Positions 4,678 to 43,254 of a stretch of DNA of 43,254 nt are shown piece after piece. The position numbers and the translations under genes were made by a program. The stretch is from Carboxylicivirga marina (GTDB taxonomy: Bacteria > Bacteroidota > Bacteroidia > Bacteroidales > Marinilabiliaceae). The notes under the pieces were generated by a model. It worked only from the letters and a program-made list of their open reading frames with translations. It did not search any database and was not told where the DNA came from. Position 1 is the stretch's first letter; each line of letters starts with the position of its first letter. The DNA lies in NCBI RefSeq assembly GCF_016612505.1, contig NZ_JAENRR010000044.1:1-43254 (forward strand), in the 5' to 3' direction.

Positions 4678-5067
4678 TTATTCTTCTTTAATTCGTTTTT
4701 CAGTCTTAAAGTATTTGTAGGTTGATGCTAAAGACTCCCAATCACTAATTTCTTTCATAATTAAGCTGTCCGAATCTAGTTTTAGCAATTCATATTTTCT
4801 GTTTCCTAAAGTAAGTTCTTTAAGGCTTAACTGATATTGTGCGTCGTAGCTTTGCGGTCCTTGTTTAACTTTAATAGTCCCATCTTCTTTAAACATCAAA
4901 AGAACTTCAATTGGTTCATTATTTGAAATTCCAATCTGGATTTGGGGGTCTGCACGTTTTTCTTCTACTCTTTCCCAAGTGCCAGTTATCTGATTTTTCT
5001 CTTGATGGTCACAAGATGCAAAGGTTATTGCAGTAAAAATGGCAACTACGATTATTAGTCTTTTCAT
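4678..5067 (-). CDS. Small lipocalin-like lipoprotein
   Basis: 129 aa. Signal peptide with lipobox FASC (Cys19). The mature part starts with ITGTWERVEEK and continues with LMFKEDGTIKVKQG and YQLSLKELTLGNRKYELLKLDSDSLIMKE. This is the pattern of the many small Bacteroidota lipoproteins with a lipocalin-like (DUF4488/DUF5004-like) beta-barrel: a GTW motif, then F..DGT, then a strand series ending in L..L..D.L. It would sit on the periplasmic face of a membrane. It lies 37 nt upstream of the membrane-anchored unknown in the same direction. No specific function can be assigned. Confidence 0.75.
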   Translation of the reverse strand: MKRLIIVVAIFTAITFASCDHQEKNQITGTWERVEEKRADPQIQIGISNNEPIEVLLMFKEDGTIKVKQGPQSYDAQYQLSLKELTLGNRKYELLKLDSDSLIMKEISDWESLASTYKYFKTEKRIKEE

Positions 5068-7136: not shown

Positions 7137-8660
7137 ATGAGAAACAATTACACTTTTAAAAAAGGACTAAGTCCGTTAATGTGGCTTAGCTTATTATTCT
7201 TTGTACCATTACTCGTTCAAGGGCAGATGCATCATAAAGAGGCCTGGAAGCAAGTAACAGACGATGCACAATGGTCTCCAAGAGCCGGATTACAAATTGT
7301 TCACCTGAATAATAATCTTTATGTGCTGGGGGGGCGAACCCCTATTCAATCAGATATTCCGGGTGACAGTGAGATATGGGGGGATGTTTGGAAAAGCAAT
7401 CTTAAAGGTAAAAAGTGGAAGAGAATACTTGAAACAAATGATCAGGATCATTGGCCGGCACGTGCCTATTTTAGTGCTTTTAGCAAAGGTAAATATATGT
7501 ATGTTGTTGGTGGGCAAAACTTTAATCCATTCGGCCCCTCCACTTTCTTTAACGATGTGTGGCGTAGTAAAGACGGCGTCAAATGGAAGAAGATGACTAA
7601 AGATAATGATGATAATATTTGGGTAGGACGCGCCGGATTAAGTTGCTTTGTCTTCAACAATGAGATATATGTACTGGGTGGTTCTAAAAATGATGACAGT
7701 GCAGTAGTTGGTGGCCCTCCGAAGCGTATATATTTTAAAGATATTTGGAAGTCAAAAGACGGTAAACATTGGGAATTAGTGACAGATGATCCGGGTTGGG
7801 AGCCTCGTGCTGGTATGCGTACCGTTGTGAAGGGAAAATTCATTTATATGATGGGTGGAGAGCGTGGCTTTACCCCTGAGGAAAAAGGTGAAGATCCTCC
7901 ATATTACAATGATGTATGGCAAAGTAGCGATGGCAAAAACTGGACAAAAATGATTGATCATGCGCCTTGGTCTGCACGTCCCGGATTTGAAGTATTACTT
8001 TATAACAAGCATTTTGTATTATTTGGAGGGTTTAACCTGGATCCAGAATTCAATGTCGATCCAGATTATACCAAAGGAGAACAATATTCTGCCAAACCCA
8101 ATAATCCAATGGATATTTGGATGAGTCGTGATGGGAAAAAGTGGATTCAGCTTCCTGGTTCTCCCTGGAATGCTAAGGAGCCGATGGATGTTAAATATGA
8201 TTTCCATGCGATTGTGGTACCTGAGTCAAAAAGAAACAGAAGCAAATCGATTATGACGGTTGGCGGAGACCGTGAAACCTTTGATTTCAGAGATCCATTC
8301 AATTACCTGAATGTAGACAATGATGTGTGGCGTTTTTACCCGAATACCAGTATTCGTCATCATGTTCATGATAAAGTACATGAGGTTGTGAAACTCTTTA
8401 AGCGTGCTTATCCAAATCCTTTTGTACATGATTGCACATTCGAATACCATTTGCCTGAAGATGGTCATTTAGCGATTCATATTTATGACGTTGCGGGTAA
8501 CTTAATTCAGACCTTATGTGATAAACACCATGTCAAAGGCGAGTATAAGTTCGTTTGGAATGGTAGGGATATTAGTGGAAAAACAGCACGAAAAGGCATG
8601 TATTTTGTAAAAATGACCTATCAAAATAAAACCGATGCAAATATAGTTATTAAGAAATAA
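7137..8660 (+). CDS. Secreted kelch-repeat protein with type IX sorting domain
   Basis: 507 aa. Signal peptide at residues 1-30 (hydrophobic LMWLSLLFFVPLL, ending VQGQ). Five blades of a kelch-like propeller follow, each with a hydrophobic stretch ending in GG (LYVLGG, MYVVGG, IYVLGG, IYMMGG, FVLFGG) and a D(V/I)W.S.DGK.W motif between. Residues about 422-507 form a FlgD-Ig-like C-terminal domain (YPNPF, then LPEDGHLAIHIYDVAGNLIQ, GRDISGKTARKGMYFVKM), the type A sorting signal recognised by the T9SS. The protein should cross the outer membrane and be released or attached to the surface. Ligand or substrate is unknown. The gene stands alone between 122-bp direct repeats, in a stretch otherwise composed of repeats and gene remnants. 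Confidence 0.9.
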   Translation: MRNNYTFKKGLSPLMWLSLLFFVPLLVQGQMHHKEAWKQVTDDAQWSPRAGLQIVHLNNNLYVLGGRTPIQSDIPGDSEIWGDVWKSNLKGKKWKRILETNDQDHWPARAYFSAFSKGKYMYVVGGQNFNPFGPSTFFNDVWRSKDGVKWKKMTKDNDDNIWVGRAGLSCFVFNNEIYVLGGSKNDDSAVVGGPPKRIYFKDIWKSKDGKHWELVTDDPGWEPRAGMRTVVKGKFIYMMGGERGFTPEEKGEDPPYYNDVWQSSDGKNWTKMIDHAPWSARPGFEVLLYNKHFVLFGGFNLDPEFNVDPDYTKGEQYSAKPNNPMDIWMSRDGKKWIQLPGSPWNAKEPMDVKYDFHAIVVPESKRNRSKSIMTVGGDRETFDFRDPFNYLNVDNDVWRFYPNTSIRHHVHDKVHEVVKLFKRAYPNPFVHDCTFEYHLPEDGHLAIHIYDVAGNLIQTLCDKHHVKGEYKFVWNGRDISGKTARKGMYFVKMTYQNKTDANIVIKK

Positions 8661-8887: not shown

Positions 8888-9047
8888 CACTTGGGGAGCT
8901 GTCCGCAGGACTGTGGGGCGGGAGTAATTAGCGCTTAAATAACATAGAACCTCCATTGGTACTGCACCATCCTGGCAAAGACAGGCCAACACACTTTCAA
9001 AACACTGTTTTGATAGAGGAATGAGCCTGACGATATTTACAAGGATT

Positions 9048-9599
9048 CTGACATCAGCAACGCAACTTGGGCCCCACTTGATGAAGCGTAGGAAATGAAA
9101 GATTTGGAGCATGTAAAGGGAATCTTTAAATTTTTCCCGTAGCAAGTCAATAGTGGGTAAGTGAGTGCTGTAGTCAGCGGGGTTTTTCGTTAGTATTTGT
9201 TCACAATAGTTTAATATTTAATGGAGTTCACGATTTCCACTTCGTTTCAATTGCCCTGCAGCAAAAAGTAACTCTGGTTTGGGCGAAACGCCAATTCTTA
9301 CTTCCTTTTGCATTGCCCAAAAGGAACAATCCCGTTCATGATTTTTGTGGATTTTAAAACTAAAATCCTACAAAATCGATGTCGGGCCTAGTCTGGCAAA
9401 ATGTCCCTCACGCTCAAACTAATTTCTATACATCTAATAAAAGTAAAGCCTTTTATCAAAGGCAAAAGCAAGCTCCTTTAAAGAAGTATCACGAAATTAG
9501 TTTTTCACCCCACCACTGGCTCTATTGCCAGACAGGCCACCGCGCTGTCAAAACGCTGTTTTGATTGGTGCATGAAAAGACGATAATTTCCAAGGGGTT
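9048..9599 (+). repeat. Array 1 unit 1, type D leader with type A right half (552 bp)
   Basis: The leader (to 9162) has a Bacteroidota-repeat sequence unlike array 2 leaders. It is followed by the junction word, a spacer containing TTCACGATTTCCACTT (shared with type B units), the hairpin TTGC-CCTGCA-GCAA, and then type A sequence including the CATTGCC-loop hairpin. A 56-bp palindrome (9331-9386) interrupts the type A part. The right half, 9388-9599, matches 41556-41767 closely. Confidence 0.8.
9331..9386. repeat. 56-bp imperfect palindrome inserted in a repeat unit
   Basis: From CCCG to CGGG; the arms GTGGATTTTA and TAAAATCCTAC pair around an AAAC loop, with a few bulges further out. In both type A units of array 2 the same place (after AAAAGGAACAA, before CTAGTCTGGCAAA) has only four or five bases. 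The palindrome is therefore an insertion in this copy, resembling a miniature inverted-repeat element. No target duplication is obvious. Confidence 0.65.
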
Positions 9600-10041
9600 C
9601 TGACATCAGCAACTTAGATGGGCACCTTTCAATCGAATTGAACGTAGAATAAAAAGCTGTTTGAGACCGATGACTATCGGTTGAGTTCTTTTAATTCAGT
9701 GAATAAGATTAGAAAGGTCATCGAGTGCTGTAGTCAGCGGACTTTTTGTATACTTTCTCGACTGTAGGAGAAAGTATAAGCCCTCGCGGCTAGAGCGAAC
9801 GCCTTATCAGGCAGATTTTCTTTTACCATTGCTGTAAAAGAAACAAAAGATCTATCCGGAAAGAATGCCCTCCCGCTCTTATCTCTTCTCAATAATTCTA
9901 ATGAAGTAAGATGTTTTTCAAACATAAAGGCAAGCCCCTTCATTGAATTATTAGTAGAAGAGACAATTCACTCCATATCTGGCCTCCACTTTCCGGCGGG
10001 CTATCGCGCCATCCAAAAAAACCGTTGAATTCCCTAGGGTT
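9600..10041 (+). repeat. Array 1 unit 2, type C (442 bp)
   Basis: Same length as the type C unit in array 2 (42140-42581) and closely matching it throughout. Structure: leader 9600-9722; junction word 9723-9740; hairpin TATACTTTCTC/GAGAAAGTATA (9749-9759/9768-9778) with loop GACTGTAG; a GCG-rich stretch; hairpin TTTCTTTTAC/GTAAAAGAAA (9817-9826/9834-9843) with loop CATTGCT; then ACAAAAGATCTATCCGG and the right end. Confidence 0.82.
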
Positions 10042-10330
10042 CTGACATAAGCAACGTAACTTGGGACCCACTTGATGAAGCGTAGGAGATGAAAGATTTG
10101 GAGCACGTAAAGGGAATCTTTAAATCTTTCCCGTAGCAAGTCAATAGTGGGTAAGTGAGTGCTGCAGTCAGCGGGGTTTTTCGTTAGTATTTGTTCACAA
10201 TAGTTTAATATTTAATGGAGTTCACGATTTCCACTTCGTTTCAATTGCCCTGTAGCAAAAAGTAACTCAGGTTTGGGCGAAGCGCCAATTCTTACTTCCT
10301 TTTGCATTGCCAAAAGGAAATAAAGTCTAG
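10042..10330 (+). repeat. Array 1 unit 3, truncated type D
   Basis: Matches 9048-9330 at roughly 96% identity, including leader, junction word, the TTCACGATTTCCACTT spacer and the CATTGC-loop hairpin. It breaks off right after the hairpin (AAAAGGAAATAAAGTCTAG), just short of the MscS stop codon at 10346. The right half of the unit is missing. Confidence 0.8.
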
Positions 10331-10345
10331 TTCCATTGATGCTTC

Positions 10346-12748
10346 TTAATCTTTATCCTTTATAATATGAATATCCCTCTGTGGGAACGGAATCGATATA
10401 CCTTCCTTATTCAATGCATCATACACCATTTGAGTGACTTCACTTCTGATTTCCAGAATATTTGGAAGGTTCGAAATCCAAAACAGCAGTTTAAAGTCCA
10501 ATGAACTTTCACCCATGTTTATAAAGAGCACTGTTGGGGCAGGTATCTTAAGAATGTCTTCGTGTGATTTCAGTACCTCTTGAAGGATGTTACTCACTCT
10601 TTCAGCATCTGAGCCATAGGCAACACCAACAATAATTTCCAGGCGTCGAAGTTGGTCAGAGTGGGTCCAGTTAATCACTTCATTGGATATTAGCTGGCCA
10701 TTTGGTACAATCACTTCTGCTCCGTCAAAGGTACGTACAATGCTCGAACGAATACCAATTGACTTGACTTTGCCGAGTAATTCGCCTACTTCAATGGTGT
10801 CGTTGATCTTTATGGGACGTTCAAAGAGTAAGATTAATCCGGATACGAGGTTGTTAAAGATATTTTGCAGACCAAAACCAATACCAACACCAAAGGCACC
10901 AATCAAAACAGCAAAATTCTGCATGGGAATACCAGCTGTATAAATGGCAAATGAGACACCAATGGTTATCAGGCTATACTTGGCTAACAAGGCGATGGTA
11001 TGCGGCAGTCCCTGGCCCATTTTGGTGCGCGCCAAAAGGTCTTCCTCTAAGAGTGTTTTTATCACATTGGAAACAAAAATAGATAATGATAAGACGATAA
11101 TGAGCATGATGATGTCTCCCAGCGAGAAACTCATGTTTTCACCAATTTCAAAGTTGTAAATGATCACCTCTTTGATGAATGAAACCACATTATCGCCCAT
11201 ATTAAAAGTTTCTAATATGGAATAAATGGCCAATAGCTGTGCCGTGAAGGTTAAGCCTTTTATAAGTTTGTTTTTAATGCTTTGGCCATAAAACTGAAAA
11301 ACTTTGAGGTTGGATTTACTGAGTTTTTTGAATGCTATTTCGAGTAAGCCATTGGCAATTAATAAGGATACAAATAGCAGTGCAAGGGTATAAGTGTTGG
11401 TAAGAATAGAGCTGACAATTAACTCCATTAAAACCACAAAGCCCAAAAAGCCAAGTATTAAAACCAATGCCAATGTCATCAATGATATAGTGAGTGTTTT
11501 GCTTAGTATAGTGCCAAACACCTTCCTTTTAAAAGGGTAGCTATTAATAAAATTGCGTAAACGAAATACAACCATAAACTCCAATATCACTGCCATAAAC
11601 AAGAAGACTTTGTATATCATGTGATTGGGCGGAAATAAATTGACAAATGATTGGGCTATAACCAACACAAACAATATTAGAATGGCAAAGAACAATTTGC
11701 GATCGAGCAAACGATGCAGGATAATGGCCAGAGGCACACATATAATGACGCGCATGGCATCTTTAAAGAGCAAAGGCTGGTTAGGGAATATTACAGCCGA
11801 TAACCATATGATTAAAACAAAAGCAGTGCTTTTATAGGCCGATAGGATTCGAATAAATTGTTTTTCGAAATAACTGTCAGTTACCGTGTCGGTATGGCTA
11901 TAGGCCGCTTTTTTAACTTGTCGGAAAGCCATCATACCAATGGCCATAATAATCAGTAGCAGAAAACCGCTCGTGCTGTTCGTAGAAAGGTAATCAGCCA
12001 GAAATCGAGATTCAATGATGATGCTTTTTTTCAATTCATGATATGCCGAACGATATTGGTAGCCATCAATCAGTTTACCATATACTATTTTACTTCGTGC
12101 AAATACATTATTCTCTTCATCATCAATCCTTATCTGAATCATTTCAAGCATGGTTGTTAGCTCAGATACATCGAATATGGCTTTATCCTGAAGGACCAGT
12201 AACTCGCTTCTATGATGTATTAACTTATTGAGTATGCTATCTTTAACAATGCTTACCCGTTGAATATTTACATTAACCACGCTATCAACTTCTTCATCAC
12301 CTAAGCCCTTAGCTATTTCAATCCATTCGTTCTCAATATCCTTTACCTTTAAGGTTTTAGCCTCAATTTCTTCAAGGCTTTGCGACATGTTATTTTCAAT
12401 GGATTGTGTTTGTTTAAGGCGTTGTTCCCAATAGGTCTTTTTATTGATGAGGTGCCGTAGATTAAATATTTTTAGATTAACCTGCTTTTCATTGATAAGC
12501 ATGCTGTCAATAATATCCAGCTTTAGCAGGTTGCTCTGAATTAGCTGATTAAACTTTGCTTCGCTTAATATGGATTTATTAATTCTATTTAGCTCGGCTA
12601 TTGAAGCGGCACTTTTGCTGGGTATTTCAATAACATCAACTTGTTGATGAACAATCGTATCAGTGGCTTCTTCTTGCTGTGTTTGAGCAATGCCTATATT
12701 GTAGCTAATAGCTAATGTCAAAAGTGCAATCAGTCGAAGTGGCTTCAT
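10346..12748 (-). CDS. MscS-family mechanosensitive channel
   Basis: 800 aa, long type (MscK/MscM-like layout rather than the 286-aa MscS). Signal peptide to about residue 21. A periplasmic, helical/coiled-coil domain spans about 30-250. About eight to eleven hydrophobic helices follow from about 258. The conserved pore helix and beta domain are clear: IGAFGVGIGFGLQNIFNNLVSGLILLFERPI, then DTIEVGELLGKVKSIGIRSSIVRTFDGAEVIVPNG and ISNEVINWT. The C-terminal alpha/beta part ends at IPFPQRDIHI. It sits in the inner membrane and should open on membrane tension during osmotic downshock. The 245-aa gene lies 36 nt upstream in the same direction, so the pair may be one transcript. The 3' end adjoins repeat array 1. 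Confidence 0.93.
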   Translation of the reverse strand: MKPLRLIALLTLAISYNIGIAQTQQEEATDTIVHQQVDVIEIPSKSAASIAELNRINKSILSEAKFNQLIQSNLLKLDIIDSMLINEKQVNLKIFNLRHLINKKTYWEQRLKQTQSIENNMSQSLEEIEAKTLKVKDIENEWIEIAKGLGDEEVDSVVNVNIQRVSIVKDSILNKLIHHRSELLVLQDKAIFDVSELTTMLEMIQIRIDDEENNVFARSKIVYGKLIDGYQYRSAYHELKKSIIIESRFLADYLSTNSTSGFLLLIIMAIGMMAFRQVKKAAYSHTDTVTDSYFEKQFIRILSAYKSTAFVLIIWLSAVIFPNQPLLFKDAMRVIICVPLAIILHRLLDRKLFFAILILFVLVIAQSFVNLFPPNHMIYKVFLFMAVILEFMVVFRLRNFINSYPFKRKVFGTILSKTLTISLMTLALVLILGFLGFVVLMELIVSSILTNTYTLALLFVSLLIANGLLEIAFKKLSKSNLKVFQFYGQSIKNKLIKGLTFTAQLLAIYSILETFNMGDNVVSFIKEVIIYNFEIGENMSFSLGDIIMLIIVLSLSIFVSNVIKTLLEEDLLARTKMGQGLPHTIALLAKYSLITIGVSFAIYTAGIPMQNFAVLIGAFGVGIGFGLQNIFNNLVSGLILLFERPIKINDTIEVGELLGKVKSIGIRSSIVRTFDGAEVIVPNGQLISNEVINWTHSDQLRRLEIIVGVAYGSDAERVSNILQEVLKSHEDILKIPAPTVLFINMGESSLDFKLLFWISNLPNILEIRSEVTQMVYDALNKEGISIPFPQRDIHIIKDKD

Positions 12749-13612: not shown

Positions 13613-13850
13613 CCTAAACGATTTTATTCAAGGCTCTAAACATCATGTTACGAACCGGCCTCAGCCGGTAAACAAAAAAACAAGTTTGATTTGACGGTTA
13701 AGAATCGTTTTCTGTGTGAGCGAAGCGAGTTTAAACGATTTCAGTCAAAGAACTGTAGTTTTATGAGTGAAGCAGGTGCAGCCTTGATGCTTTTTCCTTA
13801 GTTTTTGTCATCAAGAACAAAAATGAAAAGCCTGTCCGGCTGGAGGATAA
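13613..13850 (+). repeat. Solo relative of the mosaic hairpin repeat
   Basis: This fills most of the 409-bp gap before the xdhC-like gene. The order of signals is the same as in the array units: CTGTAG (13753-13758), a GTGAAGCAGGTGCAG stretch, a hairpin TTTTTGT/ACAAAAA (13802-13808/13817-13823) with a loop starting CAT, then AAAAGCCTGTCCGG, which matches AAAAGATCTATCCGG of type C. A GAGCGAAGCGAG motif lies before it. The primary sequence differs otherwise, so homology is argued from order and structure. Nothing else is seen in 13523-13931. Confidence 0.5.
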
Positions 13851-41265: not shown

Positions 41266-41317
41266 TCAATCAACTTGTTTCGAGTGGTGCATGAAAAGAC
41301 GATAATTTCCAAGTGTT

Positions 41318-41768
41318 CTGACATCAGCAACGCAGATGGGTACCTTTCAATCGAAGTGAACGAAGAATTAAAAGCTGTTTGAGACCGATGATAATCGGGT
41401 GAGTTCTTTTAATTCAGTGAATGAGATTAGAAAGGTCATCGAGTGCTGCCGTCAGCGGGGTTTTTCGTTAGTTTTTTTCCTGAAGAAAAAAGTAACTCGG
41501 GTTTGGGCGAAGCGCCAATTCTTATTTCCTTTTGCATTGCCCAAAAGGAACAAAAGTCTAGTCTGGCAAAATGTCCCTCGCGCTCAAACTAATTTCTATA
41601 CATCTAATAAAAGTAAAGCCTTTTATCAAAGGCAAAAGCAAGCTCCTTTTAAGAAGTATCACGAAATTAGTTTTTCACCCCACCACTGGCTCCATTGCCA
41701 GACAGGCCACCGCGCTGTCAAAACGCTGTTTTGAATGGTGCATGAAAAGACGATAATTTCCAAAGGGC
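41318..41768 (+). repeat. Array 2 unit 1, type A (451 bp)
   Basis: Leader, junction word 41441-41458, hairpin TTTTTTC/GAAAAAA (41473-41479/41485-41491) with loop CTGAA, small GGCG-AAG-CGCC hairpin, hairpin TTCCTTTTG/CAAAAGGAA (41526-41534/41542-41550) with loop CATTGCC, then GCCTTT-TATC-AAAGGC, CTGGC-TCCATT-GCCAG, GACAG/CTGTC and CAAAAC-GCT-GTTTTG hairpins in the right half. Its frame can be read as protein (…VWAKRQFLFPFALPKRNK…), which I consider spurious. Confidence 0.82.
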
Positions 41769-42139
41769 CTGACCTCAGCAACGTAGATGGGTACCTTTCA
41801 AGCGAAGTGAACGTAGAATTAAAAGCTGTTTGTAGATTACTGCTGTTTTATGAATAATACCTTCAACTCCCTAGTGCCGGGAAGGCATTCCCATTTTTTA
41901 GAAAAACGGGAAACAAAAACCTTATTGAAAGAGGTGATTGCTGCGCATCAGAGTTGGATTTATTGCTACAGGCTTCCCTTCTCCTTCGTCGAAGCCGCAT
42001 TTGTTCATTTGTTTTTGTTTTTATGTATTCACGATTTCCACTTTGTTCCAATTCGCAATATCCACTCTTATCACTTCCTTTCAATGATTCGAAACCTTGT
42101 TTCGAGTGGTGCATGAAAAGACGATAATTTCCAAGGGTT
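41769..42139 (+). repeat. Array 2 unit 2, type B (371 bp)
   Basis: Leader, then a type B core with the hairpin TTCCCaTTTTT/AAAAAcGGGAA (41888-41898/41902-41912), followed by ACAAAAACC as in the other types. The right part contains TTCACGATTTCCACTT, shared with type D, and ends TTTCGAGTGGTGCATG. No junction word. From 41765 to 41998 it is identical to 42578-42811. Confidence 0.82.
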
Positions 42140-42581
42140 CTGACATCAGCAACGTAGATGGTAACCTTTCAATCGAAGTGAACGTAGAATTAAAAGCTGT
42201 TTGAAACCGATGACAATCGGGTGAGTTCTTTTAATTCAGAGAATGAGATTAGAAAAGGTCATCGAGTGCTGTCGTCAGCGGACTCTTTGTATACTTTCTC
42301 GACTGTAGGAGAAAGTATAAGCCCTCGCGGCTTTAGCGAACGCCTTATCAGGCAGATTTTCTTTTACCATTGCTGTAAAAGAAACAAAAGATCTAGCCGT
42401 AAAGAATACCCACGCGCTCTTATCTCTTCTCAATAATTCTAATGAAGTAAGATGTTTTTCAAACATAAAGGCAAGCCCCTTCATTGAATTATTAGATGAA
42501 AAGACAATTCACTCCATCACTGGCCGTCACTTTCCGACAGGCCAACGCGCCACCCAAGAACCCGTTGAATTTACAGGGGGC
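42140..42581 (+). repeat. Array 2 unit 3, type C (442 bp)
   Basis: Same length as 9600-10041 and closely similar along all of it. Both main hairpins are unchanged (TATACTTTCTC/GAGAAAGTATA and TTTCTTTTAC/GTAAAAGAAA), while differences cluster in the GCG stretch and after GATCTA. Confidence 0.82.
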
Positions 42582-42902
42582 CTGACCTCAGCAACGTAGA
42601 TGGGTACCTTTCAAGCGAAGTGAACGTAGAATTAAAAGCTGTTTGTAGATTACTGCTGTTTTATGAATAATACCTTCAACTCCCTAGTGCCGGGAAGGCA
42701 TTCCCATTTTTTAGAAAAACGGGAAACAAAAACCTTATTGAAAGAGGTGATTGCTGCGCATCAGAGTTGGATTTATTGCTACAGGCTTCCCTTCTCCTTC
42801 GTCGAAGCCGCCATTCCGCAATATCCACTCTTATCACTTCCTTTCAATGATTCGAAACCTTGTTTCGAGTGGTGCATGAAAAGACGATAATTTCCAAGGG
42901 TT
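42582..42902 (+). repeat. Array 2 unit 4, type B with 50-bp deletion (321 bp)
   Basis: Like unit 2 but lacking about 50 bp (the segment from ATTTGTTCATTTG to the TTCCACTTTGTTCC region). The remainder is identical apart from one base near the joint. Shows that the units duplicate recently and lose internal segments. Confidence 0.82.
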
Positions 42903-43254
42903 CTGACATCAGCAACGTAGATGGTAACCTTTCAATCGAAGTGAGCGTAGAATTAAAAGCTGTTTGAAACCGATGATAATCGGGTGAGTTCTTTTAATTC
43001 AGTGAATAAGATTAGAAAGGTCATCGAGTGCTGTAGTCAGCGGGGTTTTTCGTTAGTTTTTTTCCTGAAGAAAAAAGTAACTCGGGTTTGGGCGAAGCGC
43101 CAATTCTTATTTCCTTTTGCATTGCCCAAAAGGAACAAAACTCTAGTCTGGCAAAATGTCCCTCGCGCTCAAACTAGTTTCTATACATCTAATAAAAGTA
43201 AAGCCTTTTATCAAAGGCAAAAGCAAGCTCCTTTTAAGAAGTATCACGAAATTA
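42903..43254 (+). repeat. Array 2 unit 5, type A, incomplete at window end
   Basis: Leader, junction word 43026-43043 and type A core, matching unit 1 with only a few differences through the last base of the window. Confidence 0.8.

Follow-up and report, generated by a model that had tools for sequence, protein, structure and literature searches.

Introduction

Neisserial intergenic mosaic elements (NIME) are mosaics of repeat blocks set in arrays. Pneumococcal BOX elements are modular, interspersed and MITE-like, with a variable number of internal modules and stem-loop folds (PMC3049150), and in BIMEs the REPs alternate in orientation, go with RAYTs and form mosaics of repeat blocks in arrays (PMC2817692). 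BrickBuilt, from the Bacteroidota species Porphyromonas gingivalis, is a MITE holding a tandem array with a leader and a tail (PMC4596501).

Here we analyze a window of 43,254 nucleotides, the whole of one contig (C145) of Carboxylicivirga marina. It ends in a tandem array, called array 1, whose units combine a large hairpin domain (D1), smaller hairpins (HP2, HP3, HP4) and a second folded domain (D2). By its behavior, this family is closest to mosaic interspersed repeats. It shares with BOX the character of modular, interspersed, MITE-like folded repeats, but boxB modules repeat inside one element of 67-637 bp, whereas here whole units of ~480 bp repeat and core variants are swapped between them. 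Mosaic repeat-block arrays are likewise common to BIMEs and NIME; unlike BIMEs, array 1 has its five units all pointing along the + strand, and its genome showed no link with RAYTs (0 of 5 Y1_Tnp loci). BrickBuilt offers a tandem array with leader and tail, but one made of 23-nucleotide minisatellite repeats. Finally, separate copies of D1 resemble ISAs1-type MITEs in their CAGGG/CACGG ends, their 10-bp duplications, their length of ~260 bp and the lack of a transposase gene. They differ from them in that the D1 family carries a large conserved, covarying fold, that the array edges lack such ends and that no ISAs1 transposase was recognized in the genome of the window.

We propose, with a probability of roughly 0.68, that array 1 arose by tandem expansion, at this place, of a mosaic repeat family that is non-coding, dispersed in the genome and linked to ISAs1-type MITEs. 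The analysis provides a concrete anatomy, with covariation, for a hairpin-rich repeat family of the Marinilabiliaceae, to which Carboxylicivirga belongs, and of more distant members of the order. This family matched no Rfam or Pfam family at the cut-offs, and part of it is tied to ISAs1-type transposition. No description of it was found among the publications listed.

Results

Organization of the array

Array 1 consists of five units in the order I-II-I-II-I, all on the + strand, and the contig stops within the fifth (Table 1). With boundaries that we drew from the repeat matches, units U1 to U4 measure 453, 369, 472 and 291 bp, and U5 at least 396 bp. The copy spacings of 822 and 763 bp seen in array 1 result from this order of units. 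A preliminary description of the same DNA had reported at least five same-orientation units with a common leader and right end and three fillings (A, B and C), which the unit-to-unit comparison confirmed.

Table 1. Features of the repeat family located in the window. R1 is a covariance model of D1, and R2 a longer model covering D1, HP2 and HP3.
Feature	Position	Strand	Basis
Tandem array 1 (U1-U5; U5 cut by the contig end)	41274..43254	+	repeat comparison
U1, type I, A-type core	41274..41726	+	repeat comparison
U2, type II (B): 5' half of D1 joined to the B core; without the 3' half of D1, HP2 and HP3	41727..42095	+	repeat comparison and by eye
U3, type I, C-type core	42096..42567	+	repeat comparison
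U4, type II (B), shortened	42568..42858	+	repeat comparison
U5, type I, A-type core, cut at the contig end	42859..43254	+	repeat comparison
D1 hairpin domain of U1, closing helix CTGAC-AT-CAGCA ... TGCTG-NN-GTCAG	41318..41458	+	R1 119.8 bits; fold
D1 hairpin domain of U3	42140..42281	+	R1 122.7 bits
D1 hairpin domain of U5	42903..43043	+	R1 118.9 bits
HP2 and HP3 hairpins of U1	41459..41510	+	R2 match 41318-41510; pair counts
HP2 and HP3 hairpins of U3	42282..42339	+	R2 match 42140-42339
HP4 hairpin of U1 (CCTTTTG...CAAAAGG)	41525..41550	+	sequence; fold
D2 domain of U1, closed after CTAG by the helix TCTGGCAA/TTGCCAGA	41558..41706	+	helix listing; alignment fold
D2 domain of U3, C-type; closing helix CCGTAAAG/CTTTCCGA with two mismatches	42393..42544	+	alignment fold
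Linker hairpin CAAAACgctGTTTTG at the U1/U2 junction	41719..41733	+	sequence
Tandem array 2, same family; D1 at 9048-9180, 9600-9740 and 10042-10174	8979..10331	+	limits are those of the matching blocks; R1
Divergent single D1-HP2-HP3 relative	13655..13848	+	R2 30.8 bits, E 5.4e-5

A full unit is about 480 bp long and carries its parts in the order HP4 - D2 - linker hairpin - D1 - HP2 - HP3, and the single copies L040 and L042 show the same order, with CTAG between HP4 and D2. U1 and U5 are 97.0% identical over 396 bp, and U2 and U4 98.8% over 244 bp plus 100% over a further 42 bp. U1 and U3 are still 77.0% identical over 461 bp, which makes A and C homologous variants of a single type I unit; A/C chimaeric cores are present on two other contigs, C33 and C190. 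The B (type II) units look, by eye, like a deletion form. The three fillings initially described under the name of interchangeable cores are thus real, but A and C are not unrelated cores: they are diverged variants of one folded domain, recombined as a mosaic. For this reason, and because D1 is spread over its own and related genomes, the comparison with a cassette array made in the preliminary description is not supported.

Two kinds of insertion were noticed in copies of the family. At 9217-9252 and 10211-10246 of the window and at 7502-7537 of locus L033, the 5' arm of HP2 is interrupted by a short separate repeat, TTCACGATTTCCACTT, that is also found within the B core. An A+T-rich insertion of ~45 bp lies in the tip of D1 in the copies at 4888-5066 and 5378-5556 of L034 and at 3397-3578 of L040, apparently leaving the lower helix in place.

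A conserved and covarying fold

Each of twelve copies with widely differing sequences forms a long, interrupted helix when folded. D1 is mostly closed by CYGAC-NN-MAGCA/TGCTK-NN-GTCRG and is paired otherwise in some copies, for example at 8445 of L034 and 4108 of L035. Loop sequences recur among the copies, many of which have a tip resembling GCGNAGC, a stable hairpin.

We measured covariation in two alignments. In A4, made of 33 chosen D1-HP2-HP3 sequences, 95.2% of the cells are paired and 32 of the 41 pairs show double changes. The A4 covariation score is 0.571, against 0.190 +/- 0.010 for shuffled alignments and at most 0.126 for slid structures, the consensus structure being derived from A4 itself, which favors it over its slid versions. 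One of the five measures, the number of further pair types, does not exceed that of the shuffles (65 against 63.9, a value reached by 199 of 500 shuffles). The other alignment, A3, contains 72 R1 matches (70 distinct rows) and scores 0.522 against 0.186 when shuffled, its rows being fitted to the covariance model and hence leaning to it.

Regarding D2, its closing helix after CTAG was found in five complementary versions (TCTGGCAA/TTGCCAGA, CCGGAAAG/CTTTCCGG, TCGGAAAG/CTTTCCGA, TCTCATTG/CAATGAGA and TCCAATAG/CTATTGGA) in a listing of 19 rows that kept only helices with at least six complementary bases, so that helix-breaking copies, U3 among them, are absent from it; three rows on L046, L139 and L222 were set aside as unrelated places. 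RNAalifold applied to 14 chosen D2 copies, U3 included (alignment A5), gave double changes at seven of nine closing pairs, two of the nine being broken in U3 of array 1. The compensatory changes exceed both the shuffled and the slid controls, which is what characterizes a conserved-structure element, whether RNA or DNA hairpin. From this strong covariation we infer that the paired shape is under selection or continually corrected.

Copies in the same genome and in its relatives

The first 830 bases of array 1 (units 1 and 2) have 64 matches in the genome, the array itself counted, corresponding to further arrays and fragments. R1 gave 50 matches there (E <= 5e-4), the weakest of which include the half-D1 of B units. 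They form 29 clusters; ten hold at least two matches, two hold five, and one of these ten is a pair situated in a prophage-like block on contig C22. With its 50 D1 matches in 29 clusters, its A/C chimaeras and its B form, the family displays the dispersed modular units and exchangeable modules of BOX- and NIME-like mosaics.

R1 matches were obtained in 14 of 35 genomes, namely the genome of the window, 11 of the other 13 belonging to the genus, and single genomes from two more genera of the family. Through the whole order, R2 at E <= 1e-5 reached at least 25 of 393 genomes, the genome of the window included, a lower bound since six candidates were scored per genome; 13 of these loci were inspected by eye. 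When GTDB species genomes were scanned for a pattern, the 20 stretches obtained all belonged to Carboxylicivirga, Saccharicrinis, Plebeiobacterium or Labilibacter. Plasmid and phage records gave no DNA-similarity match at E 1e-5, and viral contigs no stretch with the exact pattern. Array 1 is not unique, and the preliminary description had noted neither the further matches in its genome nor the second array in the very same window.

Link with ISAs1-type elements

Inverted ends of the CAGGG/CACGG type, for example CACGGCAATCGCATTTAA or CAGGGAAATCGCTTTAA, border several single D1-HP2-HP3 copies and delimit an element of ~260 bp. When 24 hand-chosen copies were compared using an end template taken from ends already seen, the flanking 10-mers agreed at eight or more of ten places in 10 copies, against 0 of 552 mismatched left/right control pairs. 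Six of these 10 copies come from the genome of the window, three from Carboxylicivirga sp. M1479 (two of them as G007, probably the same strain) and one from Labilibacter marinus. The duplication is exact over 10 bp at L157, L143 and L236, as well as at L156 if the end is shifted by one base. The other 14 copies have no duplication at the fixed position, and some of them lack one recognizable end.

The ISAs1 transposase model NF033564 has matches in 12 of 60 genomes, nine of them above the cut-off, and none in the genome of the window. A single match to PF13808 was found in the latter; it is below the cut-off and lies in a transposase gene without ISAs1-like ends, so that we rejected this gene as the partner transposase. 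Seven ISAs1 loci of related genomes were examined. Three of them (L285, L286 and L287) have CAGGG ends and, by eye, exact 10-bp duplications (TTATAATGAG, ATAGAGATAA and ACCATCCGAA); L298 has CAGGG ends and no exact duplication; the remaining three are partial or without a clear end pair. The ends read for instance CAGGGCAAACGCATTAAAA in L287 and CAGGGTCAACGCATTTAAA in L285. With their related inverted ends and the same duplication length of 10 bp, the separate D1-HP2-HP3 copies sit in ISAs1-type MITEs.

The arrays behave differently. Three array edges were available, the right edge of array 1 being beyond the contig, and their best matches to the end template cover 9-13 of 18 places; in 300 random windows the mean is 10.4 and the maximum 13. 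These random-level matches led us to reject ISAs1-like ends for the arrays, and no target duplication was found around the arrays. The preliminary description had named a match to a known transposable element as one of the findings that would overturn it: such a match exists for the separate D1-HP2-HP3 copies, with their ISAs1-type ends and 10-bp duplications, but not for the array unit.

The inverted ends of an element of ~227 bp at about 1344-1571 of L169 (G000:C143) resemble those of the D1 MITEs, but its contig is devoid of any D1 match, which indicates that such ends also carry other cargo.

Genomic neighborhoods

Array 2 lies between a gene for a kelch-repeat protein (7137-8660) and a gene for an MscS-type channel (10346-12748). 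No D1 was found in the 13 loci (L242-L254) surrounding matches to this channel gene in other genomes of the genus, seven of which are likely orthologues with 46-57% identity; an exact empty site for array 2 was not obtained because the nearest orthologues are only that similar. Among 42 chosen D1 copies, 28 have co-directional neighbors, 8 convergent, 5 divergent and 1 undetermined.

D1 copies were also observed inside a prophage-like block, at 1766-2567 of L177, 2048-3000 of L153 and 1960-2146 of L182, where they are antisense to the genes of the block. These genes encode a DUF5675 protein, a holin-like protein (phrog_3427) and proteins of 64 and 251 amino acids, the families having been tested on L177 and the rest read by eye. 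At all three loci, which belong to two genomes (C22 and C6 of the genome of the window, and G009), a D1 adjoins the holin-like gene on its 5' side; the second D1 copy present in L177 and L153 occupies different places. L152 (G010) has flanks similar to those of these loci.

Discussion

According to the reading that we favor, the full ~480-bp unit can fold as a single strand into HP4, a closed D2, the linker hairpin, the long D1 hairpin, HP2 and HP3. Its D1-HP2-HP3 half is also carried by non-autonomous elements (MITEs) of ~260 bp, whose ends and duplications resemble those of ISAs1 and which were presumably moved in trans, in the past, by an ISAs1-type transposase, none being recognized in the present genome. 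The arrays would have grown through unequal recombination or crossing-over and gene conversion between copies, rather than by cassette capture, as suggested by the alternation of type I and type II units, by the chimaeric A/C cores and by the B units, which look like a deletion form.

On the other hand, one could wonder whether the fold is more than a passenger. A tentative proposal, distinctly less probable than the preceding one, is that D1-HP2-HP3, with D2 as a second domain, belongs to an undescribed and widespread structured nucleic-acid family and is itself the functional unit, as RNA or as protein-bound DNA hairpin, riding different MITE ends, the prophage-like block and the arrays. If this were true, the array of the window would serve as a platform, for expression or for binding, made of exchangeable folded domains.

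A rival reading, which we consider unlikely, is that D1-HP2-HP3 (and D2) is a transcribed functional structured RNA with a role, for example, in regulation, processing or termination, the MITE ends being just one route of spread. Supporting this idea, covariation is strong, loop sequences recur, and the core stays similar while the ends differ among classes. Three loci in two genomes have D1 next to the same holin-like gene, on its 5' side, and the upstream neighbor of D1 is on the same strand in 27 of 41 cases (25 of 42 for the downstream neighbor), a weak bias. However, D1 is antisense beside this holin-like gene, and B units are kept despite the loss of half of D1. Nor does any Rfam family reach the threshold: Rfam 15 gave no match at gathering score on the window, a further search returned six matches far below gathering scores to unrelated families, and five loci gave none at E <= 0.1.

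The type of base change bears more directly on this question. One-sided (G-U) changes number 24 against 303 double changes in A4 (ratio 0.08) and 62 against 389 in A3 (0.16), in D1 copies that are not independent of one another; so low a ratio is expected for Watson-Crick-only pairing. In RNase P RNA, taken as a control, the ratio is 1.44 for 26 sequences of the order and 1.17 for 18 of the family, with alignments that are poor and unmatched to ours, RNAalifold giving only 28 and 25 pairs and the mean identity being 0.53 and 0.59 against 0.65 for A4 and 0.62 for A3. The control comprised 30 loci, of which three at contig edges (L257, L258 and L281) and the weak L284 were dropped to leave the 26. 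DNA pairing, or the correction of one arm by its partner, accounts better for the rarity of one-sided changes than an ordinary RNA does. Yet the closest copies lean the other way, G-U changes outnumbering mismatches (132 against 97) among A3 copies at least 90% identical, as an RNA would have it. Compared with RNase P RNA, this rarity provides a measurable test of whether RNA function or DNA-hairpin maintenance lies behind covariation in dispersed bacterial repeats.

DNA hairpins bring to mind REP elements. A single-stranded DNA hairpin of the REP kind, mobilized or maintained by a RAYT/TnpA-REP (Y1) transposase, would be consistent with dispersed hairpins, few G-U pairs and the GCGNAGC-like tips of many copies. 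Also in its favor, a published TnpA-REP subclass of Bacteroidetes, 2.6, has on its flanks 'atypical secondary structures' that are present in further copies in the rest of the genome (PMC6006769). The MITE form, however, possesses inverted ends and 10-bp target duplications, which Y1 transposition is not known to make. In the genome of the window, none of the five Y1_Tnp loci has an R2 match, which led us to reject a RAYT association there. Moreover, the Y1/RAYT-like transposase genes of L219 and L220 (G000:C174 and C99) are bordered, by eye, by other short palindromes, of the GGAACGGTTCC type and of the AACAGGTTT..AAACCTGTT type, apparently REP-like systems separate from the D1 family. We thus regard a REP-like origin as very improbable.

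Still less credible is a gene-cassette-like or CRISPR-like array, which the constant ends, variable middles and single orientation could evoke. The A and C middles are homologous, as judged from U1 and U3, and share a covarying closing helix, the units contain no credible ORFs and they are also found singly. As for CRISPR, units of 291-472 bp with homologous middles are far from short identical repeats separated by unique spacers.

Finally, diverged protein-coding repeats can practically be dismissed: eight ORFs of 61-111 amino acids do overlap array 1, but none of them has a Pfam match above the cut-off, and in the four with copies elsewhere indels break the frame in 7 of 10, 6 of 8, 3 of 5 and 14 of 15 copies, with substitutions over all codon positions and no third-position excess. 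The initial opinion that this stretch holds no credible gene is thereby upheld, as is the view that no named family fits it, no Rfam or Pfam family being reached at cut-off.

Beside the local expansion of ISAs1-linked repeats that we favor for array 1, one neighborhood in a related genome is worth recording. At 1428-3611 of L138 (G007:C39), a D1 copy lies ~0.9 kb from a gene for an inovirus-like replication protein (PF23343, phrog_3419), and more D1 copies occur between the downstream genes, which include, by eye, an ORF resembling a nucleotide-sugar dehydrogenase.
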